DNA of 64,000 nt. Origin: Ralstonia sp. TCR112 (GTDB taxonomy: Bacteria; Pseudomonadota; Gammaproteobacteria; Burkholderiales; Burkholderiaceae). Of the stretch, positions 27,961 through 50,685 are shown one piece after another. Where the stretch lies: NCBI RefSeq assembly GCF_007997035.1, contig NZ_VOSS01000075.1, positions 1 through 64,000 on the forward strand, read 5' to 3'. A model generated the notes under the pieces. That model did no database searches. It worked only from the letters and a program-made list of their open reading frames with translations, and was not told where the DNA came from. Numbering within the stretch: the first letter of the stretch is position 1; the number at the start of each line of letters is the position of its first letter. The translations under genes were made by a program, and so were the position numbers.

Positions 27961-28172
27961 GTGCAGTGAAGGGCCCGCGTGGCCCATAACGAGACGTCAA
28001 GGTCTCCGGTGTTACAACGCGCTACAAAAAGATCGGGCCGTTTAGGAGGGGTAACCCTAGGGTCGGATAGAATACGCCACTTCTCATTACATTTTAACAA
28101 AGTCCGTTGCCCTTTAATCGGGCAGGCTCGGACCAAGCCGCGTATAGAGACACGCGACAAGGAGCACAGAGG

Positions 28173-29226
<1,054 letters not shown>

Positions 29227-29234
<8 letters not shown>

Positions 29235-30159
29235 TTACGGTACAACGGGGAGACCGGTAATTTTGCTGACTGGCGCACGGGGCCAACTCGGTTTCGAACT
29301 GCGTCGGGCTCTGAGCTTGTGGGGCGATGTCGCGGCGCTGGATCGAGCGAGTCTCGATCTGGCGGACGATGTTCGGATCGCCGAAGTCATGCGAAGCCTG
29401 CGGCCGCGAATCGTTGTGAATGCAGGTGCCTACACGGCGGTTGACCGGGCTGAATCAGAACCTGAGCTCGCACGCAAGATCAACGTGGAAGGGCCTGCGG
29501 CGCTCGCTCAGGAAGCCGCGCGGCTGGGCAGCTTCTTGGTCCACTATTCGACGGATTACGTATTTGATGGTGCGAAAGAAGGGTGGTACCGCGAGTCAGA
29601 TCGGCCTGATCCGTTGTCGGTGTATGGGAAAACGAAACTCGAAGGCGAGCGTTGTGTTGAGGCGAGTGGCGCGTCGCATGCCGTGATCCGTACAAGTTGG
29701 GTGTTCGGCCTGCATGGCGCCAACTTTCTGAAGACGATTGTCGGCACTGCGATGCGCCGCGATGCGTTGTCGATCGTGGCGGACCAGTTCGGCGCGCCAA
29801 CACCCGCGTCACTGATTGCGGATATCACGGCGATTATGGTCGCGCGTTACCTTGCTGCCCCAGATAGGTTTCCGTCGAGTGTCTATCACGCTGCGGCGTC
29901 GGGCGAGACGACATGGCACGCGTATGCTGACTACGCATTGCGCGTGCTGCGAGCGAAAGGGGTGGCATTGCGCGTTGCGGAAGATGCGGTCCGTCCGATT
30001 CCGATGAGTGAGTATCCGAGCGCCGCGCCCCGACCGGCAAATTCGCGGCTGGATACGACAAAATTGCGGGAAACCTTCGGCATCGCATTGCCGAATTGGA
30101 AAACTGGCGTGGATTACGTTATCGAGCAGCTAGTCGAAACCGCCCAGGTCATGGCCTAA
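29227..30159 (+). CDS. rfbD: dTDP-4-dehydrorhamnose reductase
   Basis: A 310-residue reductase for the last step of dTDP-L-rhamnose synthesis. It shows [10 protein letters not shown] (about residues 13–22), YSTDYVFDG and the catalytic YGKTKLEGE. The ATG at 29227 overlaps the rfbB stop by 8 bases, indicating coupling. Confidence 0.95.
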
Positions 30160-30189
30160 CGTCGTTGTATTGCCCCATCTAGAAATCTC

Positions 30190-31071
30190 ATGAAACGTAA
30201 AGGAATTATCCTGGCAGGTGGATCGGGCACACGCTTATATCCGATCACCCGATCGGTATCTAAGCAATTGCTGCCGGTCTATGACAAGCCAATGATTTAT
30301 TACCCTCTTAGCACGCTGATGCTCGCTGGGATCAGCGATATCCTGATTATCTCAACACCACAGGATACACCGCGCTTTTCGGACATGTTAGGTGATGGTC
30401 ATCGCTGGGGCCTCAATATCGGTTATGCCGTGCAGCCGACACCTGATGGCCTCGCGCAGGCATTCATCATCGGCCGTGATTTCATTGGCAACAATCCGTC
30501 TGCACTGATTCTCGGTGACAACATTTTCCACGGCCACGACCTTCACGCACTCTTAGCGGGCGCGACGTCTGCAGAAAGTGGGGCAACCGTGTTCGCCTAT
30601 CACGTCCATGATCCCGAACGTTATGGTGTCGTCGAATTTGACGAATCGTTCCGGGCGATATCGCTAGAGGAAAAGCCAAAGGCGCCCCGTTCCAACTACG
30701 CGGTGACGGGCCTGTATTTCTATGACAACCAAGTGTGCGACATCGCCTCGACTATTCGGCCTTCGGCGCGTGGCGAGTTAGAGATCACCGACGTTAACCT
30801 TCACTATCTGCGTGCACAGCAGTTGAACGTGGAGATCATGGGGCGCGGTTATGCTTGGCTCGACACCGGTACCCATGATTCGCTACTGGAAGCGTCGACG
30901 TTTATCTCCACGCTGCAGAAGCGCCAGGGTTTGATGGTGGCATGTCCTGAGGAAATCGCATATCGCAACAAATGGATTTCGGTGGACGACCTCGGCCAGC
31001 TTGCGCGCGAACTTTCTAAGAACGAGTATGGCCGTTACCTTAGTCGGCTGCTCAAGGAGGCGGTAGCGTGA
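30190..31071 (+). CDS. rfbA: Glucose-1-phosphate thymidylyltransferase
   Basis: A 293-residue nucleotidyltransferase, first step of dTDP-rhamnose synthesis. The signature [14 protein letters not shown] (about residues 7–20) and the KPMIYYPLS and LGDNIFHG segments are intact. Length fits the family. It lies 30 bases after rfbD and its stop overlaps the GTG start of rfbC. Confidence 0.96.
31059..31070 (+). promoter_or_regulatory. ops-like (RfaH recruitment) sequence at the rfbA/rfbC junction
   Basis: GGCGGTAGCGTG matches the 12-base ops element of enterobacterial polysaccharide operons. Here it lies within the last codons of rfbA and overlaps the rfbC start, with AAGGAGG just upstream serving as ribosome-binding site. 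Position within coding sequence argues for chance. Confidence 0.2.
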
Positions 31072-31622
31072 ATTTCACCTTTGAAGCGACTGCGCTGCCC
31101 GAAGTCTTTGTGCTGGAACCTAAGTGCTTTGGAGACGCGCGGGGCTTTTTCTATGAAAGCTTTAACGCGAAGGCCTTCAAGGAAGGTACCGGCGCAGACA
31201 GGGAATTCGTTCAGGACAACCATTCTCGCTCGGCGAAGAACGTACTTCGTGGGTTGCATTATCAGATCAAGAATCCCCAAGGGAAGCTGGTGCGGGTTGT
31301 CGCTGGGCGCGTGTTCGACGTGGCCGTTGACATTCGTCGCAGTTCGCCAAATTTTGGACGTTGGGTTGGGGTTGAGCTGTCGGCGGAAAATCGCAAGCAG
31401 CTATGGGTGCCTGAGGGATTTGCGCATGGCTTCGTCGTGCTTTCAGAGTATGCCGAATTCCTGTACAAGACGACGGACTATTACGCACCTCAGTATGAGC
31501 GTTCGCTGCTCTGGAATGATCCGGCGCTGAAGATTGATTGGCCGATCATTGAGGGTGAGCCGATTCTCTCCCAGAAGGACCGGCAGGCGCTTACGTTGGC
31601 AGACGCCGAAACATTCGAGTAA
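31068..31622 (+). CDS. rfbC: dTDP-4-dehydrorhamnose 3,5-epimerase
   Basis: A 184-residue cupin-fold epimerase, third step of dTDP-rhamnose synthesis. It shows RGFFYESFN, the catalytic-His segment VLRGLHYQ, and [11 protein letters not shown]. The start is GTG at 31068 overlapping the rfbA stop (GTGA), with AAGGAGG just upstream. Confidence 0.95.
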
Positions 31623-31641
31623 CACCAAGGAAAAATTAACT

Positions 31642-32769
31642 ATGGCCATTCAACTATTTGTTCCGCACTTCCGTGTTGACGAGTGCCTTGAGGCAATTCG
31701 CGAGTGCCTAGAAAAGGGCTGGACAGGGCTGGGTTTCAAGACAAACCAGTTCGAAGAGGCATGGAAGACATACACCGGCTTGCCGTATGCGCACTTTCTA
31801 AGCTCTAACACGGTCGGGCTCCATCTGGCCTTCGAACTGTTCAAAACAAAGTATGGCTGGGCAGACGGCGACGAAGTGATCACGACGCCGCTGACATTTG
31901 TTTCATCGAACCATGCCATTCTTTACTCGAATCTGACCCCGGTATTCGCCGATGTCGATGATTCGCTGTGTCTTGATCCTGCAAGCGTAGAAGCGCGCAT
32001 CACGGACAAGACGCGTGCTGTCATTTTTGTCGGTATCGGCGGCAACGTTGGTCATTACGAGCGCGTGCTGAAGCTGTGCCGCGAGCGTGGCATCAAGGTC
32101 ATTCTGGACGCCGCACATATGTCCGGCAGCCGCGTCGATGGCAAGCACGTTGGCCATGATGCGGACGTGACAGTCTTCAGTTTCCAAGCGGTGAAGAATC
32201 TGCCGACTGCGGATTCGGGGATGATCTGCTTCAGCGACCCCGACGACGATGTCCGCGTGCGCAAGATGAGCTGGCTTGGTATCAACAAGGACACGTATGC
32301 TCGCACTGCGACACAGGGCGCCTATAAGTGGATGTATGACGTCGAGGAAGTCGGCTACAAATATCACGGCAACTCGATCATGGCCGCGATTGGTCTGGTG
32401 CAACTCAAGTACCTCGACAACGATAACGCATACCGTCGCCAGCTCGCACGTTGGTATGAGGAATTGCTGTCGGAGCACGCGAACATTCGTCTGATACCGA
32501 TTACGAAGAATTGTGAGTCGTCGCGCCACCTGTTCCAGATCCGCGTCAAGAACAGGGACGAGCTGATGCTGGCTCTGAACGAGCACGAGATCTACCCTGG
32601 GGTCCATTACCGTGACAACACCGAGTACCGCATGTATGCGAGCGGCAAAGGCAACTGTCCGAACGCACACGCCGCGTCCAACGAAATTCTTTCGTTGCCG
32701 ATGCACATGGGTGTCTCCCGCAAGGACATCGAGCAGATCGCCGAACTGATCGTCCGTTACGCGGCATGA
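31642..32769 (+). CDS. DegT/DnrJ/EryC1/StrS-type sugar aminotransferase
   Basis: A 375-residue PLP enzyme. The Schiff-base lysine lies in FSFQAVKNLPTADSG, and the GWADGDEVITTPLTF and ILDAAHMSG segments are typical. Such enzymes aminate a keto-sugar nucleotide. Beside RfbA/RfbB and a following acetyltransferase, the likely substrate is dTDP-4-keto-6-deoxyglucose or its 3-keto isomer, giving an amino-dideoxyhexose; no 3,4-ketoisomerase gene is seen, which favours C4 amination. AAGGAAAAA precedes the ATG at 31642. Its stop overlaps the next start (ATGA). Confidence 0.9.
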   Translation: MAIQLFVPHFRVDECLEAIRECLEKGWTGLGFKTNQFEEAWKTYTGLPYAHFLSSNTVGLHLAFELFKTKYGWADGDEVITTPLTFVSSNHAILYSNLTPVFADVDDSLCLDPASVEARITDKTRAVIFVGIGGNVGHYERVLKLCRERGIKVILDAAHMSGSRVDGKHVGHDADVTVFSFQAVKNLPTADSGMICFSDPDDDVRVRKMSWLGINKDTYARTATQGAYKWMYDVEEVGYKYHGNSIMAAIGLVQLKYLDNDNAYRRQLARWYEELLSEHANIRLIPITKNCESSRHLFQIRVKNRDELMLALNEHEIYPGVHYRDNTEYRMYASGKGNCPNAHAASNEILSLPMHMGVSRKDIEQIAELIVRYAA

Positions 32770-33275
32770 AGCGCGCGCACGAACCGTACGTGCATGGACG
32801 CATCCGACTGCGCTTGCTTGCTGAGGACGATCTCCAGACGACGCTCGAGTGGCGCAATCGGGATGGAGTGCGAGAGCAATTCAAGAGCTCCGATCTGCTC
32901 ACGTATACGCAGCATCACAGTTGGTTCGTGCGCTACACGGAAAAGCCGGATGATCTCGTATTCATCGCTGAGTTGGCTGACACCGGTGAGCGTGTCGGCC
33001 AAGTCGCCATCTACGCGATTGATCATGGAACCCGTGTGGCGGAGATCGGCCGTTTTGTCGTATCGCCTGATTTCCAAGGGCGCAAATTGATGAAAGAGGC
33101 GATCGACGTGCTGATGCGGTTCGCGGCCCGCGAACTGGCACTGACGTCGGTCTACCTTGAGGTGCTTGAATCGAATGAGCGTGCAGGAATGCTGTATCGG
33201 AAGCTCGGCTTCGAGGAGCGGGGCCGAGTCAATGGCCTGATTCGCATGGAACGGAGAATCGATGATTACGTATAA
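32766..33275 (+). CDS. GNAT-family N-acetyltransferase, probable amino-sugar acetyltransferase
   Basis: A 169-residue single GNAT domain; the acetyl-CoA loop lies around VVSPDFQGRKLMKEA (about residues 98–112), and the NERAGMLYRKLGF segment is typical of RimJ/RimL-type GNATs. Tight coupling to the aminotransferase suggests it N-acetylates that enzyme's sugar product. This is an inference from context. Its end overlaps the permease start by 14 bases. Confidence 0.85.
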   Translation: MKRAHEPYVHGRIRLRLLAEDDLQTTLEWRNRDGVREQFKSSDLLTYTQHHSWFVRYTEKPDDLVFIAELADTGERVGQVAIYAIDHGTRVAEIGRFVVSPDFQGRKLMKEAIDVLMRFAARELALTSVYLEVLESNERAGMLYRKLGFEERGRVNGLIRMERRIDDYV

Positions 33276-34073
33276 CAGTGCTAGTGCGAACTCGACGATG
33301 AAGGAGTTCGTCAGTGCTGCGAAGTTGTGGCGTGTGTGGCTTCACATGGGGTTCCAGGACGTCAAGAGCCGGTTTCGTAGTTCGGCCCTTGGGCCGGGCT
33401 GGATTCTTGTCAATCTTGCGGCGGTAGTCGGCGCAGTTGGGTTGATCTACGGTCGGCTGTTCCACCAGCCATGAATGAGTTCCTTCCGTTCTTGACGCTC
33501 GGCATCGTGATTTGGACATTCATCACGTCGTCGCTTGTCGAGGGTTCGATGGCATTCGTTGTTGCAGAGGGCTACATCAAGCAATTTCCTTTCCCGAAAC
33601 CGATTTATCTGTATCGGGCACTTGTCCCGTATACGGTCGTATTTACGATCGGGCTTGTTGTCTACTTTGTAGTCGTTGCGTTCTATCAGCGCCACGTCGG
33701 ATGGGGCGCACTATGGGCAATCCCTGGATTCGCTCTGTTTCTCGCCATCAACTTCTTTCACGTCGTGATTGTTGCGCACGTCGGCGTCCGTTTTCGCGAT
33801 CTGCCGCACTTGCTAGGCAGCCTGATGCAGATTGCGTTCTACATGACGCCGGTGATTTTCACCGTTGCGATGCTGAAAGATCGCGGGTTATCGTTCATTT
33901 ACGCGTTTAATCCGCTCTACTACCAGATCGAAATCATGCGCTACCCGCTTCTTAACAGCGAGGCGCCGCCGCCTGAAGTCATCATCGTGGCGCTCGGCTA
34001 TTGTGCAGTGGTGGGCACTCTTGCGATCGTCGTTGTTAAGAAGATGTCGCGGCGGATCGTGTACGTACTATGA
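33262..34073 (+). pseudogene. O-antigen ABC transporter permease (Wzm-like), frameshifted as given
   Basis: An ABC-2 type polysaccharide export permease of about 270 residues with six expected membrane segments. The first part (33262–33474) ends after RLFHQP and the second (33471–34073) continues with EFLPFLTLGIVIW in the -1 frame. In family members these two segments are contiguous, so one base appears to be missing at about 33469–33471. The second frame carries the typical EGYIKQFPFPKP segment. Both halves are otherwise intact and the partner ATPase overlaps the end (ATGA), so a sequence error is likely. A real two-polypeptide split with coupled restart at the ATG at 33471 is less likely. 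Confidence 0.85.
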
Positions 34074-34825
34074 CGTCAAACTTGAATATCAGCCTGCGCA
34101 ATGTGGGCGTTAGTTTCGATGTATCCGCGCGCCAGGATAGTCTCAAGTCTGTCGTGCTCAATGCCCTGCGAGGCAAACGCTCATCTGGTTCCCACGAGAA
34201 GCGTTTTGTGCATGCGCTCAAGGACGTCAATCTTGAGATCACACACGGCGAGCGCGTAGGGCTGATTGGCCTGAACGGGGCGGGCAAGAGCACGATTTTG
34301 AAAGTGATGGCGGGTATCTACCCGCCGACTTCGGGCGAGGCGCAGATCGATGGTCATGTGTCCGCGATGTTTGAGCTTGCGACGGGTTTCGAAATGACCC
34401 AAACAGGTTGGGACAACATTCGCATTCGCGGCATGCTGCTCGGCCTCACGCCCGCGCAGGTGGAAGACCGCATCGACCAGATCGCTGAATTCTCCGAGCT
34501 TGGCGAATTCCTTGACTACCCTGTCAAGACTTATTCGGCCGGTATGTTTATTCGCCTCGCCTTCTCCGTTTCCACTGCGATCAACCCAGAAATTTTGCTG
34601 CTAGACGAAGTGATGGGCGCCGGCGACGTCCAGTTCGCGAACAAGGCGAAGAAGCGGATGTACGAGTTTATGGAGCAAGGCAAGATTTTGGTGTTCTCTA
34701 GCCACAGCCTCGAAATGCTTCAGTCTTTCTGTGAGCGGGTAATTTGGCTTCGCAAGGGCGAGGTTGTGATGGATGGGCCGGCGAAGCGTGTGCTTGAAGA
34801 GTACGAAAGACGATCAGGGCAGTAA
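34070..34825 (+). CDS. O-antigen/polysaccharide ABC transporter ATP-binding protein (Wzt-like)
   Basis: A 251-residue nucleotide-binding subunit with Walker A GLNGAGKST, the signature-like segment KTYSAGMFIRLAFS, Walker B ILLLDEVMGAGD, and the switch His in VFSSHS. It energises export of lipid-linked glycan with the overlapping permease. It ends right after the ATPase domain, so it lacks the C-terminal carbohydrate-binding domain of the E. coli O8/O9a Wzt type. Chain length control would then differ from that model. Confidence 0.93.
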   Translation: MTSNLNISLRNVGVSFDVSARQDSLKSVVLNALRGKRSSGSHEKRFVHALKDVNLEITHGERVGLIGLNGAGKSTILKVMAGIYPPTSGEAQIDGHVSAMFELATGFEMTQTGWDNIRIRGMLLGLTPAQVEDRIDQIAEFSELGEFLDYPVKTYSAGMFIRLAFSVSTAINPEILLLDEVMGAGDVQFANKAKKRMYEFMEQGKILVFSSHSLEMLQSFCERVIWLRKGEVVMDGPAKRVLEEYERRSGQ

Positions 34826-34891: not shown

Positions 34892-37800
34892 ATGAAAGTC
34901 GAAACAGTAACGCGTGATACATGCTGGTTTGCTGAGCAGGAGCGCTCGCAACCGGACGTATCCGTGTTGCTGTATGTAGGTGAGACAGGTGTGCAGCAGC
35001 TTGCGCGTAGCGTCGAATCAGTGCTGACGCAGACGCTTACTGCCGTCGAACTTATCGTTGTTGACGATACCGCCGACACGGCAGTCGCAGAATGGCTCGA
35101 TGGCAAGCGCAATCGCGATCCGCGCATCGCATTGGTTCGCCGAGCTAAACCGATCGGTATTCCAGCTGTCGGTTGGATAGAGGCCTTTGCGCATGCCCGG
35201 GCACCCTGGATCGTCATCGCCAGAACGAGTGACGAGTTTTATGAGGATGCGCTCGAAGGGCTGCTGAACAGTGCGCGTGCCTACGCCGAAGCGATTCCGT
35301 TTGGCTTCGTAGAGACTGCAGTGCGTGACGAGGCGACCGGTAATACGACGAAAGTCTCGGCTGGAGGCGGCGGTGGCGTCTCCATGACCGTGCTGCGCAC
35401 CCGCAACTTCATTGCGCGCCACGCGTTGTTGATTCCGCGCCGAGCAATTGAGACGCTCGGCTTCGTTGATCCGCACGTGCTTCTCCGCCATGCGGCCGAA
35501 TGGGATTTCTGGCGCCGACTGTCTGACTGCTTTGAATTGAAGGCTGTCGATGTCGCAGTCGGGGTCACACGTGCGGTGGTGCCGGATACGGAGTTAGACG
35601 GCTGGGCGCTCGAGGAATGGATGCGGACGCCCCGTAATGATCGGTTGCTGCCCGGCCGTGTTGGGGCCTACGATCTGACCGCCTCGAATCCGGCGCACAC
35701 TTGGGCAACGCGGGACGTTTGCACAGATCTCGCCACGCGTCTGGCAGATGGCAGTTCGGCTCTGGACCCACGTTCGGTGGGCAGCACGGACGGCTGCATC
35801 TTGATCGTGACTGTGCAGTACGACGCGTCGACCGCGCTTTACTTCGACATGCTCCCAGCGCCCTGGCGGCATCGCGTACGCGTCGTCATTAACGGTCCCG
35901 GGTCCGATTTCAGTGCACTCGCGCGTGCGACTGCGTTGATCGTGTCGCGTGCTATCCGGTGCTACCGCCCTTGGCTCGATGCAGCACGCGAGCTGGGTGT
36001 GCCGACCTATTACTTCCTCGATGACAACATGCCAGTACTCGCCGAATTGGGCGAGGCTAGCCTGAGCGGCGAGGATTTCACACCCCAGGCGATGCGCAAG
36101 GATCTGCGCTTGTTCGATGGCGTGTTGCTGAGTAGCGAGCCTCTGATCACGTATTTTCGCGAACGTAACCTGCATGCGCGGCTGCTGCATTTCCCAGTAG
36201 CGTGTGCAGATATCGAAAGCATGCGGGCCCAGCTAACCACTGGACGACGTGCAGCCAATGACGATGAGTTCGTGTTCGCTTTCATGGGCGGCCTGCACCG
36301 TTCGAATGCCGTGTGGGCAGTCATTTTGCCGGCGCTCGTCAAGATTGCTGAAGAAGGATACCGCATCCATTTTGTCGCGCCAGGCAGCGGCAGTGATGCG
36401 AGCATGCTCGAAGGGTTGCCGTCGACCATGCGCGTGACGCTATTGCCGTGGGACCCTGGTTACGCATTCGCGCTGCGGCGTTTTGCGGCGCTGACGCCAA
36501 ATTACCTGCTGCTTGCGCCGAGCAAGACGCCCAATAACTCATACAAGACGCTGCACCCGTTGTTGACGGCAGCGCTCGTTGATGCAGTCGCCGTGCTACC
36601 CCGCATCGATCCTTACGTGGCGATAGAGGACGGCTCGATTGCGTTGATGGTTGACGAGCCGTTTGAGTGCGACGGGTGGTATGCGGTATTGCGCGAAATT
36701 GTCGAGGGCCGTACCAATGCTCAGGCGATCAAACAAGCTAACGAGGCGTTTTGCCGCAGCGCATTTTCGGGCGTGCCGAATGCTTCCGCACTGATGGAGA
36801 TCGCCTCAGAAGCCCGCGGTGTGCCTTCTTGGCCAGGGCAGTCACGCCGTTTCGACGCGCTTACGCGAGCAGCTCGCGAGCTCGGTTATGACGCTGCTGC
36901 GGATAGAGCGTGGGCGAGTAGCCTGGAGGAATTGCATGCGTTGCGCCATATGCGGCGATATTCGTGGCGACATCGTGTGCTGTCGCGGCCATCGGACATG
37001 TGGGAGTACTGCGGTCCCGCCTTCTGGCCACTCAAGCGCGATACCGCCAAGTATGGCTGGCGTCGTCGTGGCGGCACGCTCGAGTTCAGCGATAGCCTGC
37101 ACTGGCTCCCGTATCGCGATTATGACGTTGCGTTACCTGCCGGCATGCTCGGTGGTGTCGCATTCGCGTTCGCGACCGACGGTCACCGTTCTGGCAAGGC
37201 GACGGTCGAATTGATTTCACCAACTGGTCAGTGTGTTGCGCGGGCCGAGCGCGACTTGGCACGGGCGGACCTGAGTCAGCCGCTGCGTTTCATGTTCGCC
37301 CCCGTCGAAATCGTCGAAGGGACGGTCTGGCGCATCCGGGTGCGATGCCGCACGTCGATGCCAGTGTACGTCTACGAGATCGTGAATCGCCGCCGCCTCG
37401 GCATGTTCTATGGGCCGCCGAGCCCGTTTATGGAGATCCTCCCGCCAGATCCTCGTGCAAGGCGGGGTCTGCTTCCGGCGGTCGACATGGACGCTCGTCC
37501 AGACGCGCCGCTGATCGACATCAAGTTCGTTGTCGAAGGCGATATCCCAACCAACCAGATCATCCAGCGGCTCATCGTGGAAGCGCTCGGCGATTGCGGC
37601 GAAGTCACGCGGTTGCTGCTGCCTCAATTCACCCCCGAAGCGCTCTATGAAGGAGGGCTCGTTGTTCTCAGTCGAACGGCAAGCCCCGCGTCGCTGCCGA
37701 TGCTCGACTGGATGCGCATGCACGGGATGCCCTATGTCTACTACATCGACGACAATTTCTGGGAGTTGAAGGGTGACTCTCGGATCGCGCAGTTCTATCA

Positions 37801-38686
37801 GAGCGCGCCTGTCCGGCACACGCTGGATAGGTCGATTCGAGAAGCCAGTTATGTCGTCGTGAATGCGCCGCGGCTCGGCGAGTACATTAAGGCGCGCTAT
37901 CCGAAGGTTCGGATCGTCCAGTTGAATGCGCCGTTTGATTTTTCGCTGATCGATGATCTGCCGGCGCCGACTAAGTCTGCGGACGAAGTGCGCGTGGGCT
38001 TTGCGGGTAGCATTACCCGGGCGGACGATTTCATCGAGATCCTCCCCGCTCTCAGGCGCGTGCTTGATACCTATGCACACGTTACGCTCGTGTTCTTCGG
38101 CTATTGCCCACCCGAACTGATTGGAATGGAGCGGGTCACGTTTGTGCCACACGTGGCGTCGTATTCTGACTTCATCAAGATGAAGGCATCGTACGGTCTC
38201 GATATTGGTCTCGCGCCGATGGCCGATCTCGCGGCGAATTTATACAAGACTAACAATAAGTACCGCGAATATGGCGCGATGCGAATCGCCGGCATCTACA
38301 CGAACACATCACCGTACAAGGAGAGCGTGACCAATGGAGTAACCGGCATGCTGGTCGACCATAGCGCCGACGCATGGTATCTCGCTCTGGAGAAGCTGAT
38401 CGTTGACACAGCGTTTCGCAGGCAGATCGCGGAGGCAGCTTATACGGACGTTCGAACACACTATGCACAGGACGTCGTAGCGAAGCAATGGAAGGATTTC
38501 CTGCAGAGGGCCGCTGGCGAGTTGCGATCTGCAGACGTTTCGATGAAGACCGGCCGGGCAAGTGTCGCGTTTATAAGAATCCGACGCTGGCTTGGGCATA
38601 CGAAGATTCGCGCGCTGGTCTGGCGTGCGCGGATTAAGGCGCAAATCGTACGTGCCGGAACATGGTTCAACCGCGTACGCAGTTAA
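34892..38686 (+). CDS. Large modular glycosyltransferase (GT2 + two 'DDN' GT-B domains)
   Basis: This 1264-residue protein has four parts. Residues about 20–290 form a GT2 (GT-A) domain beginning VSVLLYVGETG. About 295–690 form a GT-B-like domain with YYFLDDN (D377-D378-N379) and KTPNNSYK (K545). About 700–860 form a beta-rich module. About 870–1215 form a second GT-B-like domain with YYIDDN (D953-D954-N955) and KTNNKYREYGA (K1119). The two GT-B domains look like paralogues of each other and of one in the gene at 40214. It could add several sugars in sequence to the O-antigen. Acceptor and donors are unknown; rhamnose is likely from context. Confidence 0.85.
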   Translation: MKVETVTRDTCWFAEQERSQPDVSVLLYVGETGVQQLARSVESVLTQTLTAVELIVVDDTADTAVAEWLDGKRNRDPRIALVRRAKPIGIPAVGWIEAFAHARAPWIVIARTSDEFYEDALEGLLNSARAYAEAIPFGFVETAVRDEATGNTTKVSAGGGGGVSMTVLRTRNFIARHALLIPRRAIETLGFVDPHVLLRHAAEWDFWRRLSDCFELKAVDVAVGVTRAVVPDTELDGWALEEWMRTPRNDRLLPGRVGAYDLTASNPAHTWATRDVCTDLATRLADGSSALDPRSVGSTDGCILIVTVQYDASTALYFDMLPAPWRHRVRVVINGPGSDFSALARATALIVSRAIRCYRPWLDAARELGVPTYYFLDDNMPVLAELGEASLSGEDFTPQAMRKDLRLFDGVLLSSEPLITYFRERNLHARLLHFPVACADIESMRAQLTTGRRAANDDEFVFAFMGGLHRSNAVWAVILPALVKIAEEGYRIHFVAPGSGSDASMLEGLPSTMRVTLLPWDPGYAFALRRFAALTPNYLLLAPSKTPNNSYKTLHPLLTAALVDAVAVLPRIDPYVAIEDGSIALMVDEPFECDGWYAVLREIVEGRTNAQAIKQANEAFCRSAFSGVPNASALMEIASEARGVPSWPGQSRRFDALTRAARELGYDAAADRAWASSLEELHALRHMRRYSWRHRVLSRPSDMWEYCGPAFWPLKRDTAKYGWRRRGGTLEFSDSLHWLPYRDYDVALPAGMLGGVAFAFATDGHRSGKATVELISPTGQCVARAERDLARADLSQPLRFMFAPVEIVEGTVWRIRVRCRTSMPVYVYEIVNRRRLGMFYGPPSPFMEILPPDPRARRGLLPAVDMDARPDAPLIDIKFVVEGDIPTNQIIQRLIVEALGDCGEVTRLLLPQFTPEALYEGGLVVLSRTASPASLPMLDWMRMHGMPYVYYIDDNFWELKGDSRIAQFYQSAPVRHTLDRSIREASYVVVNAPRLGEYIKARYPKVRIVQLNAPFDFSLIDDLPAPTKSADEVRVGFAGSITRADDFIEILPALRRVLDTYAHVTLVFFGYCPPELIGMERVTFVPHVASYSDFIKMKASYGLDIGLAPMADLAANLYKTNNKYREYGAMRIAGIYTNTSPYKESVTNGVTGMLVDHSADAWYLALEKLIVDTAFRRQIAEAAYTDVRTHYAQDVVAKQWKDFLQRAAGELRSADVSMKTGRASVAFIRIRRWLGHTKIRALVWRARIKAQIVRAGTWFNRVRS

Positions 38687-38761
38687 TGCGCGAAAGCCAC
38701 GCCATCAAGCTTGATTGAGCATTCCTGTTTCTGGATTCTTAGCTCGAGGTATTAGATAGAA

Positions 38762-39700
38762 ATGCCGGTCACAGTGCGAGAGCCAGGTAGCCATGGCGCC
38801 AGCGTTGGCGCAGTTGTTGTTAGCTACCACCCGGACTTTGTTGTATTCAATACGCTTCTCGAGGCGCTATCCGGGCAAGTCAATATTATATATGTGGTCG
38901 ATAATGGGTCTGGCGAAGCGGCTCTTGAGGGGTTGCGAGCCCTGATTACAGGCAAAAACGTTGAGGTAATTGCTCTTCCAACTAACCGCGGAATAGCGGC
39001 GGCGCACAATATCGGGATTAGCCGCGTTGTGGAGCGAGGTCTTAAGTATGCGCTCCTCTTCGATCAGGATAGTGTCCCAGCGCCAGATATGGTGGTGCGT
39101 CTTGTAAGCGCTCACCAGAGCCTTGATGATCAGGGCGCGAACGTGGCGGCGGTCGGCCCTGTCTCGGTGGACCAACGAACTGGGACTCTGGGGAATTTTG
39201 CCCGCATTCGGGCTGCTAGTGTTCAGCAAGTGCCGTGTGCCGACACCGATGATGTTATGGAAGTAGATTTCCTGATTTCATCTGGATGTCTGATTCCTAT
39301 TGATGCCCTCAATGCCATCGGAGGCATGAACGAAGATTATTTCATCGATCATGTCGATACAGAATGGTGCATTCGTGCGCGCGCCGCCGGCTGGCAGCTG
39401 TTTGGCGTATGTGGCGCGAAGCTGTCGCACGCGTTGGGTGACAGGGTAGTACGAGTTTGGCTCGGCCGGTGGAGGGAGGTGTCAGTGCACTCACCTTTGC
39501 GTGACTACTATATGTTTCGCAACACCGTGCTGATGCTGAGGCAAGTCCCGATGGCATGGAGTTGGCGTGTTGCGCATCTGCGGCGTATCGTGCTGTTTTT
39601 TATATTTTTTGGCTTGATAATTGCGCCTCGTCGAGAGCGGATCGCAATGATGATGCGAGGTATCTGGCACGGCCTTATTGGACGGATGGGAAATTACTGA
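38762..39700 (+). CDS. GT2 rhamnosyltransferase-like protein (RfbN/WbbL type)
   Basis: A 312-residue GT-A enzyme: the N-terminal VVSYHPD and VVDNGSG segments, a DQDS donor-binding motif (about residues 101–104), and SPLRDYYMFRN with R-x-YY-xx-RN typical of rhamnosyltransferases of the RfbN/WbbL family. A hydrophobic C-terminal segment (about 275–290) may anchor it at the membrane. The dTDP-rhamnose genes upstream fit this role. Base composition falls from here on compared with the upstream genes. Confidence 0.85.
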   Translation: MPVTVREPGSHGASVGAVVVSYHPDFVVFNTLLEALSGQVNIIYVVDNGSGEAALEGLRALITGKNVEVIALPTNRGIAAAHNIGISRVVERGLKYALLFDQDSVPAPDMVVRLVSAHQSLDDQGANVAAVGPVSVDQRTGTLGNFARIRAASVQQVPCADTDDVMEVDFLISSGCLIPIDALNAIGGMNEDYFIDHVDTEWCIRARAAGWQLFGVCGAKLSHALGDRVVRVWLGRWREVSVHSPLRDYYMFRNTVLMLRQVPMAWSWRVAHLRRIVLFFIFFGLIIAPRRERIAMMMRGIWHGLIGRMGNY

Positions 39701-40213
39701 GAATCTATTGTCCTCTTCTGAACAGCAATGCCTAGGGGCAAGAGAATGGACTGCACGCCGCTATCTGCGTGTGCAGCTCTTCCGCAGTCAGTAAGGTTGC
39801 GGAAACGACGCTAAACATCTAAGTGCTGCAATCTTTTCGTCGGCACCTGGCAAGGTTTCTTTCAATCATGAGCCCTCGCCCTATGGTCCTAGATCATCTT
39901 CCGGGGGGAATTCCCGTGAGTAAACGGTGATCGTGGCGGGGCCATAGTCCACTTTTCTGGCTGCTGTCGATATACCAAGCAGCGTTCATGTGCAGCGGCT
40001 CCTTTTGCGATTATCGAGTAATTTCCTTCGGTGTTGAAAAAAATTCCTTAATTTTTGCACGGATAACGCGCTTGGTAGCCATTTTACATTCAGTAGATTT
40101 GATTTCTGGGGAAGAATCGCGTAGCGTGCCTTCGGGTCCTTCAGCGGCCGTCGGATAGAATTTTGGGCCCGAGATGTAACGTAACGACTTAGACGCGATA
40201 TCACTGACAGAAA
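39701..40213. other. Gene-free, lower-GC interval between glycosyltransferase genes
   Basis: I see no supported gene in these 513 bases. The 60 bases from 40021 contain 24 G or C, well below the flanking core genome. It may hold a decayed gene or element, but I could not recognise one. Confidence 0.5.
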
Positions 40214-42847
40214 ATGAGAATTTTAGCGATTTCCCCGACGTCCGGATTGAGCGGCGTCGACCAGACCTTCCGCTATCTTTGCACGGGCCTCGCGTCGATG
40301 GGCGCTGAGGTCACTGCTGTACTTCCGCCAAACGCCGAAACTAAGAATGATCTTATAGTCGGAGGCGTTGATGTCGAGGAGGTCCGTCATATGCACTGGT
40401 GGTTTCCGGTTGGATTCTCAGACGAAGATGTCTCGCGAGCTGTCGATCGGTCTCGGATTAACGTCCGACAACTCCTGCGTATCATTTCTCAAATTAATCC
40501 CGACGTTGTTATCAGCAATACCAGTGTTTCGCTCGACGGGGTCATGGCAGCCATGATTTCGGGGACACCTCACGTAACACATTTGCATGCGTTATTCGTG
40601 GATAATATTTTTACGCAAATGTCGGCCAGCTTCAAAAATGCTGTGTACGGACTTCTCGCGGGCCCAGGTTCGGCAATGGTGGTTCCCGCAGCCGAAATAA
40701 AAAGACAGATCGCTGAACTGGTGCCGCACAGCGTCGACCATATCTTCCCAATTCCGAATGGAATCGACGTCGAACGGTTCCGCCCGGCTCAGCTGCAGCC
40801 GTCTGGAGAAACTCGCATCGTTTCTCTTGGTCACTTTAATGATAACAAGAACCAGTTGATGCTGGTAGATGTTGCGCGCGAAATGAAAGAGCGGGGCGTC
40901 GACAACTTTAAGTTTGTCTTGGCAGGGCCGGCTGAGACCGTCTATCTTTCGATGCTTCGGAACCGCATCGACGACAACAATGTCACGAACTATTTTGAAA
41001 TATTGGACGCGCAGTCTGACGTTCTTCCCTTACTGCAATCGTCGCATATCTATACGAATAGCTCGACGACGGAAACCTTTCCCGTTTCTGTACTGGAGGC
41101 GATGGCGTCAGGTCTTCCATGCGTTTGCACCCCGACAGTGGGTGCTCGCGAAATTGTTGATTCTGGTGTAACTGGCTATATTGGCCAGAACGTTCGCGAG
41201 TTGGCCGACCACCTTATTATGCTCATCAACGATCCTGGAAAACGCAACGATATGGGTCGTGCAGCGCGGGCGAAAATCGAAACACTGTACTCGTCGGAAG
41301 TCTTCGCGCGTAAGTTCTTTGACGTCGTGCGACGCGTTGCCGGCTCAAATAGCCTTCGGCCTACACCGTGGCTTGGTAAGGTTTTTTTTGGGAAGCCGTT
41401 GCATTTTGACGTTGGGGACGTGAAACGTATTGCAATCATCATTCCGGATTGGTCTCTTACGTCTTGTGTGCTGTTAATTAAAAAGCCTTTCGAATATATC
41501 AAGGAAAGAAATTTCGATATTGATGTTTCGGTGTATTCGTACGGCGAAATTCAGAATATCAATTTGGACGAAATTGATCTTCTATACGTCTTTCGTCTAT
41601 ATGTCGATCCTGTTCCTACCCTGGTGAAGCAGGCGAAGTTGAAAGGGATTCCTATAATTTTCGAAACCGATGATAATTACTTTGCTCTGAAATTTGAAGC
41701 AGGTGAGGTTGTGCACGGCTCCGTGAGTAACCCGGCGTTGGAAAGCGTATTGGAGGACGCTGACACAACAATTGTCTATTCTCCGACAATGCAAGAGGAT
41801 GCACTTCGCTTTACGAAATGTGTCACTCGTCTCCGACCGTATCAACTCATCGGCGACACACCGGCCAAGGGCGATAACGGGCAAATAATCGGCTTCATGG
41901 GGACGCTGAAGAAGGACGTGGATTTCGAATTTATCGTTCCTGCTCTGCAGCGCTTACTGGAGGAAAGGCCGCACCTACGACTCGAATTCTTTGGTTTCGT
42001 ACCGGATGCGTTGAGCAACAATCCACGCGTATCTCAGAAGCCGTTCGACCCAAATTATGATAGCTTTATTCGGTTCTTCCGTAGCCGTCGATGGACGGTC
42101 GGTTTGGCGCCGCTGGCCGATAATGCATTCAATCGTAGCAAAACAAACAACAAGTATCGCGAGTATTCGGCCGCCGGATATGCTGGCGTGTATTCGAATG
42201 TGCCGCCGTACGCAGACTGCGTCATTGATCAGGAAACGGGATTGCTGGTCAACAACGACACTGAAGCTTGGTACGACGCTATTGTTCGGCTACTCGATGA
42301 TGCAGAGTTGCGATCGAAGATAATCGACAGCGCTTATGATGACGTTAAGAAAACCTATCGATTCAAGGATCATGTTAATAGTAAGCTTGAGATTGTTAGA
42401 AAGCTTCTTGACTCGAGGGCCAGGGAGGGCGCCGGTTTAGAAGCGAGGTTCTCGCGCGCTGCAAGGATGGAAAGAACGTGGTCGGCTAAATCCACTAGTC
42501 GTCTTTGTTGGCCGGTTACTATTTCAGGAAGACCTTTCCATTCCCTGGTGATGAGTTTTAAGGGGGTGATTGCGGGTATTGAGCTGATTCCGCTTGATTT
42601 CATAAAATCTAGCGATTCGGAGATCGGCGTTGAGGTCGTGTACGAGAACGAGATCATCGCTCACGTAACTAAACCCACCGTAAGCATGGAAAGAAAGGAG
42701 CTAACTTCGTTTGCCTTTGGTAAGCCTGTGGCCGTTGATGGGGTAGTCGAAATCAGAGTATTTGCGCGATCTCCTGTTGCAAGGACGAAGATAATGGGTG
42801 TACTGGGTCGGCGTGGACCTAGGCCTCTGCTGGCATTGTTGCACTAG
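40214..42847 (+). CDS. Modular glycosyltransferase (GT4 + 'DDN' GT-B domain + beta module)
   Basis: This 877-residue protein starts with a classical GT4 domain (about 1–385) that has IPNGIDVERF and the E-x7-E motif in ETFPVSVLEAMASG. A second GT-B-like domain (about 390–740) has FETDDN (D486-D487-N488) and KTNNKYREYSA (K643). It closely resembles the C-terminal domain of the 1264-residue enzyme. A beta-rich module (about 760–877) ends the protein. Codon and base use are clearly AT-richer than the core (22 G or C in the 60 bases from 41521). This suggests acquisition by transfer. Likely role: two sugar additions on the O-antigen. Confidence 0.85.
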   Translation: MRILAISPTSGLSGVDQTFRYLCTGLASMGAEVTAVLPPNAETKNDLIVGGVDVEEVRHMHWWFPVGFSDEDVSRAVDRSRINVRQLLRIISQINPDVVISNTSVSLDGVMAAMISGTPHVTHLHALFVDNIFTQMSASFKNAVYGLLAGPGSAMVVPAAEIKRQIAELVPHSVDHIFPIPNGIDVERFRPAQLQPSGETRIVSLGHFNDNKNQLMLVDVAREMKERGVDNFKFVLAGPAETVYLSMLRNRIDDNNVTNYFEILDAQSDVLPLLQSSHIYTNSSTTETFPVSVLEAMASGLPCVCTPTVGAREIVDSGVTGYIGQNVRELADHLIMLINDPGKRNDMGRAARAKIETLYSSEVFARKFFDVVRRVAGSNSLRPTPWLGKVFFGKPLHFDVGDVKRIAIIIPDWSLTSCVLLIKKPFEYIKERNFDIDVSVYSYGEIQNINLDEIDLLYVFRLYVDPVPTLVKQAKLKGIPIIFETDDNYFALKFEAGEVVHGSVSNPALESVLEDADTTIVYSPTMQEDALRFTKCVTRLRPYQLIGDTPAKGDNGQIIGFMGTLKKDVDFEFIVPALQRLLEERPHLRLEFFGFVPDALSNNPRVSQKPFDPNYDSFIRFFRSRRWTVGLAPLADNAFNRSKTNNKYREYSAAGYAGVYSNVPPYADCVIDQETGLLVNNDTEAWYDAIVRLLDDAELRSKIIDSAYDDVKKTYRFKDHVNSKLEIVRKLLDSRAREGAGLEARFSRAARMERTWSAKSTSRLCWPVTISGRPFHSLVMSFKGVIAGIELIPLDFIKSSDSEIGVEVVYENEIIAHVTKPTVSMERKELTSFAFGKPVAVDGVVEIRVFARSPVARTKIMGVLGRRGPRPLLALLH

Positions 42848-43531
42848 AAAAACGACCCCTTCATTCAGGGGGGGTGAGCACGGCACCATCTATTTGATTG
42901 CAAGGCGCAAAGGCCGGGGAGCATTTTCTGCGGCGGGTCAAGCGAGCCCAAAGGCTCGCAGCCGCATGTGACGTCTTCCTATTCGAGCACTGTAAGGTCC
43001 CATCAGCAACTGGGAAAGATATGCCAACAGGCACGCCTCAATAGGCTGGATCTGCGGCGCTAACATCCTCCGTTGGTCCAATCACATCTTGGCAACACGT
43101 GAACATTGAGGTTGGCCGCAGCTTCGATTCGTTTTTTAACGTTGATCAATGGCGTCATATCTCACGGGCTTCGTGAGAACTGAAATCGACGATGAGATAC
43201 TGCTCCTGCGGGGAGCGCCGCTATCAAGCCGACCTCCTCATCCTCTAGGTTTGCAGCAATCCGCTCCTCGCCGAGTTTCTTCCCTCAATGTGAGGCAACG
43301 ATTCCCCACTGACCCGCGCTGTGCAGAATCAGTTGCGTAGTTCCGGCGCGGCGCATGACAATGCGCATACAACAGAGCGGATTGCGCCAAACCAGACACT
43401 CGCAGGTGTATATCACTGCAATCTGCACGGGCTGAGAATTTTGTCTGTGTACCCCGCAAACTTTGCTACACCCTTTGGCTGGTATTTCGCCGGATGGGCA
43501 CCCCACGTACTTGAGCAGTGATTTGATTGAT
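42848..43531. other. Gene-free interval with hairpins, between glycosyltransferase genes
   Basis: No supported gene is seen in 684 bases. A CCCCT/AGGGG hairpin (42856–42871) follows the upstream stop. A nested hairpin lies at 42929–42966 (TGCGGC...GCCGCA outside, GCGAGCC/GGCTCGC inside). A short open frame ending at 43521 is not supported as a gene. Decayed sequence is possible. Confidence 0.5.
42929..42966. other. Nested hairpin in the intergenic gap
   Basis: TGCGGC (42929–42934) pairs with GCCGCA (42961–42966), enclosing GCGAGCC (42942–42948) and GGCTCGC (42953–42959) with a 4-base loop. No T-run follows, so it may be an RNA structure or a remnant rather than a terminator. Confidence 0.4.
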
Positions 43532-44341
43532 ATGTCCAATATTGGTGTCCGGGACGGTGATGCCGGAGACCACGAAAGCAGTGTCCCGGAAATCACCATC
43601 TCCATCGTGAGCCACCGCCAGGCTGCCTTGGTGAGACCGCTGCTCGCGCAATTGCGTGCATTGAGCGCCAAGGCCTCTCTACACGTCATCGTTACGCAGA
43701 ATCTGCCGGAAGATAGGATTCCGGTCGAGGAATCGGACACATTTCAGGTGACATGGCTCGTGAACGCAGTGCCCGCAGGTTTCGGCGCAAACCATAACGC
43801 AGCGTTTGCGCACTGCCAATCCAATTGCTTCTTGGTGCTGAACCCAGATGTCAGGCTGGGCGACGACAGTGTTCTGCGCCTCGTTTCCCACCTCGCAGAA
43901 CACCCGGGTGTCGTGGGGCCGCGTGTTGTGACGCCCTCGGGCAGTCTTGAGGATAGTGCTCGGCGAGTCCCCACTCCAGCGCGACTGGTTAGGCGCTGGC
44001 TACTGCGACGGTTCGAGCCGGATTATGATGCATCGATTCAGTTCCAGCCCGTCGATTGGATTGCTGGCATGTGCATGGCGTTCGATCGCGACAGCTTTTC
44101 GAGTGTGGGGGGGTTCGACAACCGGTTTCATTTGTATTGCGAGGATGTGGATATCTGTCTGCGGTTGCAGCTGTCAGGACTCCAGGTTTCCTGGCTGCAA
44201 TCGGCCGTTGTAGTGCATGATGCGCAACGGGCAAGCCATCGCAAATGGCGTTACCTCGTCTGGCATCTGCAGAGCATGGCTCAGCTAATGACGTCGGTTG
44301 CCTATTGGCAGTTCCGCCTCCGCGGGCGACATTTTTCCTAA
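43532..44341 (+). CDS. GT2 family glycosyltransferase (rhamnosyltransferase-like)
   Basis: A GT-A enzyme of 269 residues from the ATG at 43532. It has the N-terminal ISIVSHRQA, the NPDVRLGD donor motif, and GGFDNRFHLYCEDVDICLRL, the acidic ED-D segment typical of GT2 rhamnosyltransferases of the WbbL type. The open frame begins earlier (43463) but the added residues are not conserved. It precedes the WecA-like gene by 11 bases and is likely cotranscribed with it. Confidence 0.83.
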   Translation: MSNIGVRDGDAGDHESSVPEITISIVSHRQAALVRPLLAQLRALSAKASLHVIVTQNLPEDRIPVEESDTFQVTWLVNAVPAGFGANHNAAFAHCQSNCFLVLNPDVRLGDDSVLRLVSHLAEHPGVVGPRVVTPSGSLEDSARRVPTPARLVRRWLLRRFEPDYDASIQFQPVDWIAGMCMAFDRDSFSSVGGFDNRFHLYCEDVDICLRLQLSGLQVSWLQSAVVVHDAQRASHRKWRYLVWHLQSMAQLMTSVAYWQFRLRGRHFS

Positions 44342-44352
44342 TTCGATCTTCT

Positions 44353-45429
44353 ATGTTCGACTTCTTTTGGGTGCCGGCAACCTCGGCCCTGGTGACGGTG
44401 ATCGCTGTCTTGCTGCTGCGCCCTCTGGCCAAGCGCGGTGGTCTGCTGGACCGTCCGGGCGGCCGCAAGCGCCATGATGGCGATGTCCCACTGGTTGGCG
44501 GTCTTGCGATTCTGATCGCAGTGAGCGTTGGAGCCATTCTTTTTATGCGATCGCAGGGCTATTACGTTGCCTTGTTTGGTGGCTTGGGTGTTTTGGCTTT
44601 TGTTGGCTTGATCGATGATCTCAAAGGAATGTCTCCTTTGACCAAGCTCGGTGCGCAATTGTTCGCCGGTGTATTGATGACTTCGTGGGGCGGGGTTTTC
44701 CTGATGTCGCTGGGCGATCTCTTGGGAAAACGGGATGTCGATCTCGCAAACTGGGGGATCCCGCTGACGCTATTTGCAGTAGTCGCTGTTATCAATGCGG
44801 TCAATATGTCGGACGGGCTTGATGGGCTCGCCGGCGGGTTGTCTGCCATCGTAGTGGGCTGGCTCGCTTATCTTGCGGGGGAGGTCGGTAACAACGCCGC
44901 TCAGCGGATCTGCATGGTACTAGCCGGCGCGCTGGTTGGCTTCCTGGTGTTCAACATGCCTAACCCGTTGCGCCGCAGTCGGCGCGTATTTTTGGGGGAT
45001 GCCGGAAGTCTTATGCTCGGCTTGGCGATTGTCTGGTTTGCGGTCGAGTTGTCGCAGCGTGCGTACAATTCCGGACGGCATGTGCCGCCTGTCGTGATGC
45101 TGTGGGTGGTCGGGGTGTTACTGATCGATTTGCTTGCCGTGGTGACGCGTCGCGTGTTTTCCGGACGGAACCCTTTGTCGGCCGATCGAACACACTTGCA
45201 TCACATCCTTTCACGTATGGGTATGTCGCAGAATGCGGTTATCTGGGCGATTCTGGGTGGTAACGCAATCCTAGGTTTGATCGGCGTGGTGGCTTGGAAG
45301 CTTGGTGTGCCAGAGTCTTGGATGTTCCTGTCACTGCTCATTTTGACCGTGCTACATCTATTGATCATGAGCAACGCGTCGCTGTTTTTGCGCCGCGGGC
45401 GAAGGCTCTTTTCACGATGGCATAGGTAA
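44353..45429 (+). CDS. wecA: Undecaprenyl-phosphate GlcNAc-1-phosphate transferase (WecA/MraY family)
   Basis: A 358-residue polytopic membrane protein that starts glycan synthesis by moving a HexNAc-1-phosphate to undecaprenyl phosphate. The active-site Asp pair in GLIDDLKG, NAVNMSDGLDGLAGG, FLGDAGS, and the sugar-recognition RTHLHHIL are all visible, with about ten hydrophobic segments. The HLHH form fits WecA-type enzymes using UDP-GlcNAc. It would initiate the ABC-exported O-antigen of this arm. The last gene on the plus strand; the minus-strand arm ends 16 bases away. Confidence 0.9.
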   Translation: MFDFFWVPATSALVTVIAVLLLRPLAKRGGLLDRPGGRKRHDGDVPLVGGLAILIAVSVGAILFMRSQGYYVALFGGLGVLAFVGLIDDLKGMSPLTKLGAQLFAGVLMTSWGGVFLMSLGDLLGKRDVDLANWGIPLTLFAVVAVINAVNMSDGLDGLAGGLSAIVVGWLAYLAGEVGNNAAQRICMVLAGALVGFLVFNMPNPLRRSRRVFLGDAGSLMLGLAIVWFAVELSQRAYNSGRHVPPVVMLWVVGVLLIDLLAVVTRRVFSGRNPLSADRTHLHHILSRMGMSQNAVIWAILGGNAILGLIGVVAWKLGVPESWMFLSLLILTVLHLLIMSNASLFLRRGRRLFSRWHR

Positions 45430-46216: not shown

Positions 46217-46252
46217 GATGGAAGCACGGTTGCTTGCGGTGAGTGGTGCGTG

Positions 46253-48696: not shown

Positions 48697-48698
48697 GC

Positions 48699-50680: not shown

Positions 50681-50685
50681 GAGTC

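Follow-up and report, generated by a model that had tools for sequence, protein, structure and literature searches.

WsaF of Geobacillus stearothermophilus, a rhamnosyltransferase of glycosyltransferase (GT) family GT4 (PDB 2X0D-F), is a point of comparison for modular enzymes of surface-polysaccharide synthesis. In WsaF the first Glu of the EX7E motif is a proline, E333 binds the deoxyribose O3 and the E333A variant retained part of the activity, whereas D171 lines the acceptor tunnel and D171A is almost inactive; WsaF clusters include a dTDP-sugar pathway and, in some relatives, the exporter genes Wzm/Wzt (PMC3898925). A second comparison is offered by the WbbB-type O-antigen transferases of Klebsiella pneumoniae, which join several GT modules (GT99, GT102 and GT103) in one protein and belong to ATP-binding cassette (ABC) exporter systems (PMC11231755). 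Here we analyze two large proteins, A and B, encoded in a 64,000-nucleotide stretch of Ralstonia sp. TCR112 DNA (contig NZ_VOSS01000075.1, positions 1 to 64,000; hereafter the window). The window combines dTDP-sugar and Wzm/Wzt genes as WsaF clusters do, and A and B resemble WbbB in carrying several GT modules beside an ABC exporter, a likeness drawn from description. Three of their domains, D1 and D2 in A and B_D in B, share a DDN motif. We consider it reasonably probable that A and B are modular O-polysaccharide glycosyltransferases whose KTNN-type modules, D2 and B_D, transfer a dTDP-4-acylamino-4,6-dideoxyhexose.

The two proteins are laid out as follows, with the basis of each assignment in brackets.

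34892..38686, plus strand: protein A, 1264 residues, GT2-D1-beta-D2 (open reading frame, Pfam, six fused orthologs)
34892..35746, plus strand: A residues 1-285, GT2 domain (Pfam PF00535, E 2.5e-9)
35789..36811, plus strand: A residues 300-640, D1, divergent DDN domain without the nucleotide-binding Glu (hhalign to the DDN family, 99.7%; 10 D1 sequences aligned)
36020..36028, plus strand: DDN codons of D1, A377-379 (sequence and D1 alignment)
36545..36547, plus strand: K552 of D1, homolog of K1119 and K643 (alignment)
36809..37471, plus strand: A residues 640-860, linker and predicted beta domain (no Pfam match; probably related to the beta domain of B)
37529..38536, plus strand: A residues 880-1215, D2, KTNN-type DDN domain (PF13692, 29 bits, cut-off 27; 35% identity to B_D)
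37748..37756, plus strand: DDN codons of D2, A953-955 (sequence and alignment)
38246..38269, plus strand: K1119-x6-E1126 of D2, KTNNKYRE (sequence and alignment)
40214..42847, plus strand: protein B, 877 residues, GT4-D-beta (open reading frame, Pfam; 883-codon open-frame counterpart in genome G026)
40214..41368, plus strand: B residues 1-385, canonical GT4 domain with E287-x7-E295 (Pfam and sequence)
41396..42418, plus strand: B residues 395-735, B_D, KTNN-type DDN domain (PF13692, 34 bits, cut-off 27)
41669..41677, plus strand: DDN codons of B_D, B486-488 (sequence)
42140..42163, plus strand: K643-x6-E650 of B_D, KTNNKYRE (sequence and alignment)
42419..42844, plus strand: B residues 736-877, predicted beta domain (comparison with the beta region of A)

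Relation of the DDN domains to GT4 and WsaF

The two reading frames, their lengths and the DDN motifs at A377, A953 and B486, reported in a first-pass annotation of the window, are confirmed in the sequence, and the domain orders it proposed agree with Pfam (for GT2 and GT4) and with the architectures of homologs. Its grouping of the three domains is also borne out, as BLASTP and profile-profile comparison both give significant matches. D2 and B_D, the two C-terminal-side domains described as alike, share 35% identity over 250 residues (E 3e-45); D1 matches D2 at E 1.5e-7 and B_D at E 1.2e-6. Using hhalign, ten D1 sequences align with 58 sequences of the DDN family (alignment A4) at 99.7% over 323 columns (E 1.4e-26). 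By these comparisons D1 is remote from D2 and B_D, yet homologous. A fourth DDN, at B253-255, lies within the GT4 domain in a non-homologous position and looks like chance.

The statement that these features match no described family was too strong. D2 and B_D pass the cut-off of Pfam Glyco_trans_1_4 (PF13692), which matches 48 of the 58 members of A4 at E <= 0.01. Against the PDB, the family profile finds solved GT4-type enzymes (best E 2.3e-8), TarM and BshA among them, together with further matches that we take to be PglA and MshA. It also aligns at 98.4% (hhalign) with a five-sequence GT4 alignment led by the GT4 domain of B; here a histidine of that domain is the counterpart of the first DDN Asp. 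For D1 the direct comparison with the same five sequences is not significant, and the D1-beta region of the window has no Pfam match. Using phmmer against the PDB, protein A found nothing up to E 1 and B_D nothing better than E 0.012. In the open-access papers searched, no description of a DDN motif in glycosyltransferases was found. Computation shows the DDN domains to be one homologous family, related through sequence profiles to GT4 and WsaF. Judged by these profiles, the family is a GT4/WsaF-related variant, not a new kind of enzyme, and its members would adopt the GT-B fold.

D2 and B_D resemble GT4 enzymes such as PglA, BshA, MshA and TarM (PF00534/PF13692) in the C-terminal donor-domain profile and in the second Glu of E-x7-E. 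They differ in that the first Glu is replaced by a K-x6-E arrangement, in which the Lys lies one residue closer to the second Glu than the first Glu of E-x7-E does; D1 lacks both Glu. The first-pass claim that E-x7-E is absent from DDN domains is right for the first Glu but not for the second, which is kept as E1126 in D2 and E650 in B_D. Donor use unlike that of canonical GT4 enzymes, which the annotation had raised, is plausible.

Conservation was examined in an alignment of 83 DDN domains, in which the DD pair and the Lys are invariant: D953 and D954 are each found in 81/81 rows, N955 in 64/81 and K1119 in 83/83. Many of the rows were retrieved through DDN or K-x-N-K-Y-x-E patterns, so the counts for these motifs are favoured; R928 (79/80), Y1142 (82/83) and W1162 (83/83) lie outside the search patterns. 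Remoter relatives beyond this set carry DDD, DDL or DDW. The second-Glu column is acidic in all 73 rows that are not D1 (Glu 72, Asp 1) and in none of the ten D1 rows, which have T (7), S (2) or A (1). The lysine first assigned to the D1 motif, K545, is K in only two of ten D1 sequences, and their alignment rules it out as the homologous residue: K552 is invariant (10/10) and aligns with K1119 and K643. Consequently the proposed DDN-to-Lys spacing of 157-168 residues describes D2 (166) and B_D (157) but not D1, where the distance to K552 is 175.

The relation to WsaF is clear once enough sequences are compared. Compared with 18 WsaF-like sequences by hhalign, A4 gives 95.6% (E 1.1e-8) and A5, which contains D1, gives 96.1% (E 3.5e-9); with only three WsaF-like sequences the values are weak (40% and 7%). 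In both alignments the second DDN Asp coincides with the Asp in the WsaF motif Q-D-[YF]-E, which reads Q170-D171-F172-E173 in the solved chain, so that this Asp corresponds to D171. In the A4-WsaF alignment the Glu of K-x6-E falls on E333. The two motifs would therefore span the cleft, DDN facing the acceptor and K-x6-E the donor. WsaF and D2/B_D both lack the first Glu of EX7E and keep the second, and the acidic motifs in the N-lobes of WsaF and the DDN domains share an alignment column. The motifs themselves differ: the Q-[DE]-x-E pattern, whose Q and E are invariant in the 18 WsaF-like rows, is DDN in the same column here, and PHPSYPPLE of WsaF contrasts with KTNNKYRE. The Pfam family WsaF_C (PF22772) has no match in A or B up to E 1 and none in the window's own genome, G000.

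A scan of viral contigs with B_D alone found no relative; ten stretches matched a pattern and none was confirmed. Plasmid searches (311 and 50 records) gave remote, partial matches only, none covering >80% of the query and all <60% identical. Plasmids of Escherichia and Enterobacter, and one of Streptococcus suis ('rhamnan synthesis F family'), also carry putative relatives of D2.

Co-occurrence of KTNN-type domains with a DegT aminotransferase

Proteins A and B lie among the following genes.

28146..31622, plus strand: rmlB, rmlD, rmlA, rmlC, dTDP-L-rhamnose pathway (above NCBIfam cut-offs TIGR01181, TIGR01214, TIGR01207, TIGR01221)
31630..32769, plus strand: DegT sugar aminotransferase, co-occurring with KTNN-type DDN domains (homology and genome surveys)
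32766..33275, plus strand: GNAT N-acetyltransferase, PseH-like (68.9 bits, under the PseH cut-off of 93.1)
33471..34825, plus strand: Wzm (3' part, one frame) and Wzt, ABC polysaccharide exporter (profile matches)
38762..39700, plus strand: GT2 rhamnosyltransferase (RhaGT2), same cluster (TIGR01556, 269 bits, cut-off 200.6)
43463..45429, plus strand: GT2 and WecA-like initiating transferase (adjoin RhaGT2 and D2 in genome G026 and locus L037)

These genes were used as queries against 47 DDN loci, named from one scan of genome contigs (L044 and L065 are on one contig) and read about 5 kb to either side, less at contig ends. Wzt was found in 32 loci, Wzm in 28, GNAT in 27, DegT in 26 and any rml gene in 23. 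Apart from Wzt, Wzm, DDN, DegT and GNAT, no family recurs in more than nine loci, so the flanks read contain no other GT that regularly accompanies DegT. As controls we used 60 Wzt-centred loci and all 18 WsaF places, read about 10 kb to either side or to the contig end. The 60 were drawn from 68 places ranked 3-70 among about 142 listed, rank 1 being the window and rank 2 G111, which is in the test set; the second G128 place, G115, G108, G305, G285, G107, G166 and G196 were left out.

DegT at >=300 bits is present in the flanks of 23/47 DDN loci, compared with 0/60 Wzt and 0/18 WsaF loci, where the highest score is 130 bits. Among controls with RmlA or RmlB the count is 0/20. Fisher's test gives p 2e-12, the loci not being independent of one another. 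The same division is followed by GNAT at >=40 bits (26/47 versus 0/78). Nine loci with no DegT in the flank were checked genome-wide, and all nine have one (630-779 bits); seven of these matches reach across the edge of the locus, and the remaining two are about 1 and 5 kb outside. Of the other 15 loci, ten have a DegT of 535-675 bits in the genome (L039, L041, L043, L055, L058, L064, L065, L067, L072, L073), the match in L041 containing one stop codon; nine of the ten lie within about 7 kb if on the same contig, contigs being identified by number only. The genome-wide total is 42/47 loci at >=390 bits.

In the reverse direction, DegT at E <= 1e-100 was found in 3 of 398 genomes of the phylum: the window's own G000, G026 and G111. 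These are the carriers of the KTNNKYRE domain; any DDN-like match occurs in 13 of 349 genomes, G000 included. The scores of G111 are identical to those of L066, and the two may be the same genome. In the family, 3 of 118 genomes have DegT (G000, G026 and G473) and all are DDN carriers; the G473 match shares contig number and position with the genome of DDN locus L035 (G453). The link between KTNN-type DDN domains and DegT is shown by these computations.

With RmlA, RmlB, RmlC and RmlD all above their NCBIfam cut-offs, both dTDP-L-rhamnose and the 4-keto sugars that precede it are available. Among solved chains DegT is nearest to TlmJ (5uid, 173 bits) and also matches ArnB; TlmJ, PseC and ArnB are sugar aminotransferases of the same fold family. 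The nearest NCBIfam model is PseC (TIGR03588; 219 bits, cut-off 423.5), ArnB giving 206 bits against a cut-off of 631, and with both scores under the cut-offs no exact product is assigned. GNAT is nearest to PseH (TIGR03585), below its cut-off, and among solved chains to spermidine acetyltransferases. TlmJ has a role in tallysomycin. Like ArnB and PseC, it acts at C4, on 4-keto sugars of the L configuration. A dTDP-4-acetamido-4,6-dideoxy-L-hexose, such as that of N-acetyl-L-perosamine, is for this reason a reasonable guess at the DegT-GNAT product, and no more than that. A sugar of this kind, L-Rhap4NAc, is present in the O-antigen of Aeromonas O6 (PMC6562859); an open-access literature search for L-perosamine together with O-antigen and aminotransferase found nothing.

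Modular layouts and cluster context

Protein A is fused as GT2-D1-beta-D2 in the window and in six loci (L029, L030, L031, L033, L034, L035); in L032, L036 and L037 it is split, D2 having a gene of its own apart from that of GT2-D1-beta. In L032 and L036 the two parts are on opposite strands, and the D2 frame of L032 retains a piece of the middle region. Beside GT2-D1-beta in L036 there is a second partial copy, comprising the D1 end and the middle region (L036:10142-11044, minus strand), a trace of rearrangement. The cluster of G026 has the order RmlB-RmlD-RmlA-RmlC-DegT-GNAT-Wzm-Wzt-B-D2-RhaGT2-GT2-WecA, with D2 as a separate gene and no GT2-D1-beta in the 20 kb read. About 200 kb from its DegT, G026 also encodes a GT2-DDN protein (L157), though the full cluster is elsewhere in that genome. 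Other layouts are DDN-DDN and GT2-DDN (L041), GT2-DDN-GT4 (L034, L038, L067), GT4-DDN-beta, and GNAT-DDN, a 981-codon Planctomycetota frame (L056:3150-6092).

The beta region of A is probably a relative of that of B (hhalign 82%, E 1.1e-5). The beta domain of A gives an uncertain 58% against Bacillota beta domains, for which that of B has no significant hhalign match; residues 640-860 of A have no Pfam match up to E 10, and ten members gave two weak families at chance level. These domains (A 640-860, B 736-877) accompany DDN modules and may bind the growing glycan.

In a tree of the 83 domains, B_D falls in a clade of 4 rows (100/99) together with its copy from G026 and the GT4-DDN-beta proteins of two Bacillota, Caproiciproducens and Butyrivibrio. 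D2 groups with stand-alone or fused Burkholderiaceae D2 domains (11 rows, 100/98) and, further out, with Pseudomonas and others (17 rows, 100/99). D1 stands apart on its own branch of 3.3 changes per site. The tree is midpoint-rooted, the root serves for drawing only, and several rows are long.

The G+C fraction across 28001-52000 is 0.49-0.60 in 2-kb bins, with the minimum at gene B (0.491), and 0.62-0.70 in the remaining window, as expected of an acquired O-antigen island. The Wzm permease gene (33262-34073, plus strand) lies in two frames, with about 70 N-terminal residues before a stop near 33472 and the other 200 in the second frame; in seven relatives compared it is a single open frame of 254-277 codons, and the split is either a real frameshift or an assembly error. 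Wzt has 251 residues and matches, under the cut-off, a galactan-export ATPase model of 244 positions. Its length is thus close to that of the model, making a C-terminal carbohydrate-binding domain unlikely, and, by what is known of ABC systems, chain length is then probably not fixed by a terminal cap. The WecA-like match scores 251 bits (cut-off 326). A second, divergent polysaccharide cluster occupies 45446-51810 (minus strand), with a GT2, a sugar-phosphate transferase (PF02397), a GT4, a Wzx-like flippase (PF01943) and a UDP-GlcNAc 2-epimerase.

Proposed role and alternative explanations

We suggest that A and B act as multi-domain glycosyltransferases of an ABC-exporter-dependent surface polysaccharide of the O-antigen type. 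WecA would start the chain; RhaGT2 and the GT2 and GT4 domains would add L-rhamnose or other residues; D2 and B_D would add the amino sugar made by the adjoining RmlA/RmlB(/RmlC)-DegT-GNAT genes. It is the co-occurrence with these genes that leads us to infer a dTDP-4-acylamino-4,6-dideoxyhexose donor; its stereochemistry, and the linkage and mechanism of the DDN domains, are likewise proposals. The second Asp of DDN may take the acceptor-tunnel position of WsaF D171 and the Glu of K-x6-E that of the nucleotide-ribose Glu. The invariant Lys would lie near the site of the lost first Glu, which contacts the donor sugar in other GT4 enzymes. D1, which keeps DDN, Lys, Tyr and Trp without the Glu, is most likely an altered copy that binds an ordinary donor weakly or not at all; it may hold the acceptor or act weakly.

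Several points weigh against this proposal. Co-occurrence is no proof that DDN domains transfer the DegT product, as another GT in each cluster might do so, and the loci were found via DDN, so DDN recurs by construction. The controls come from one phylum and the DDN loci from several; L125 and L175 overlap, and L128 and L177 hold a DDD-type DDN relative. The DegT of L043 is not near the DDN genes, five of the 47 loci have only a 227-268-bit DegT (L042, L048, L053, L056, L075), and only four distinct genomes, one of them that of the window, underlie the reverse test. No DegT scores above 108 bits in the loci of DDD-type relatives (L159-L169), and none is matched within 10 kb of L157, the KCPNKYLE copy in G026. 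The position in the cleft is taken from remote alignments of 10-15% identity, in which the catalytic arginines of WsaF have no clear counterpart.

One competing view holds that DDN modules are dTDP-L-rhamnose rhamnosyltransferases like WsaF and that another enzyme of the cluster transfers the DegT-GNAT sugar. The cluster does contain rmlABCD, and the DDN profile is related to WsaF, a dTDP-L-rhamnose enzyme that lacks the first Glu of EX7E too (PMC3898925). We nevertheless regard this as unlikely, though by no means negligible. The rml genes are no rarer in the controls, where DegT is absent: RmlA at >=100 bits is found in 13/60 Wzt and 6/18 WsaF loci (about 10 kb read) and in 9/47 DDN loci (5 kb read). 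The flanks offer no other recurrent GT to handle the DegT product, and A and B both lack PHPSYPPLE, the motif suggested for the use of rhamnose. Could the DegT link instead be a mere effect of shared ABC-type polysaccharide clusters, given that 32/47 DDN loci also carry Wzt or Wzm? This we find improbable, because DegT at >=150 bits occurs in 0/60 Wzt-centred loci of the same phylum and the four distinct DegT genomes contain no DegT-GNAT-Wzt locus without DDN.

Two further alternatives concern the domains themselves. Instead of being degenerate, D1 could be a third transferase that is fully active on a different donor: 10/10 D1 sequences retain DDN, K552, Tyr, Trp and two adjacent Asn (NN), and none of the ten GT2-D1-beta proteins in the set lacks the domain. 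Its replacement of an otherwise strictly acidic nucleotide-ribose position and the missing Pfam match make this doubtful, but a possibility to be taken seriously; since WsaF E333A is partly active (PMC3898925), loss of the Glu alone is no proof of inactivity. The first-pass annotation had pictured duplication and shuffling of one module. Split and fused forms with varied partners speak for shuffling. Recent duplication inside the cluster, to which the 35% identity and the KTNNKYREY stretch shared by D2 and B_D might point, is very improbable and we reject it on the tree grouping: each window domain has its nearest relatives in other species, and B_D, D2 and D1 fall in separate groups.

Our proposal of an amino-sugar donor for D2 and B_D can be extended, more tentatively and with a greater chance of being wrong than right, to the module as a whole. 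The DDN / K-x-x-N-K-[YF]-x-E module may be an unnamed glycosyltransferase family, intermediate between WsaF and GT4, whose members all use a single rare donor: a 4-acylamino-4,6-dideoxyhexose, perhaps N-acetyl-L-perosamine. It would have spread through at least seven phyla as a cassette with its own aminotransferase and often an acetyltransferase. Proteins or clusters with several DDN domains would attach this one amino sugar through several kinds of linkage, and the invariant Lys, taking the part that a Glu has in other GT4 enzymes, would recognize the N-acyl group.

For most glycosyltransferases in surface-polysaccharide clusters the donor is not assignable from sequence. When a module follows a single aminotransferase from phylum to phylum, its donor can be predicted and the prediction tested directly; if it is true, part of the polysaccharide composition could be read from genomes. 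Furthermore, the split and fused forms reveal natural domain borders usable for constructs. The neighbouring genes, which in many bacteria seem to produce a rare amino sugar, suggest which sugar the main type of DDN domain adds to the surface coat of the cell.

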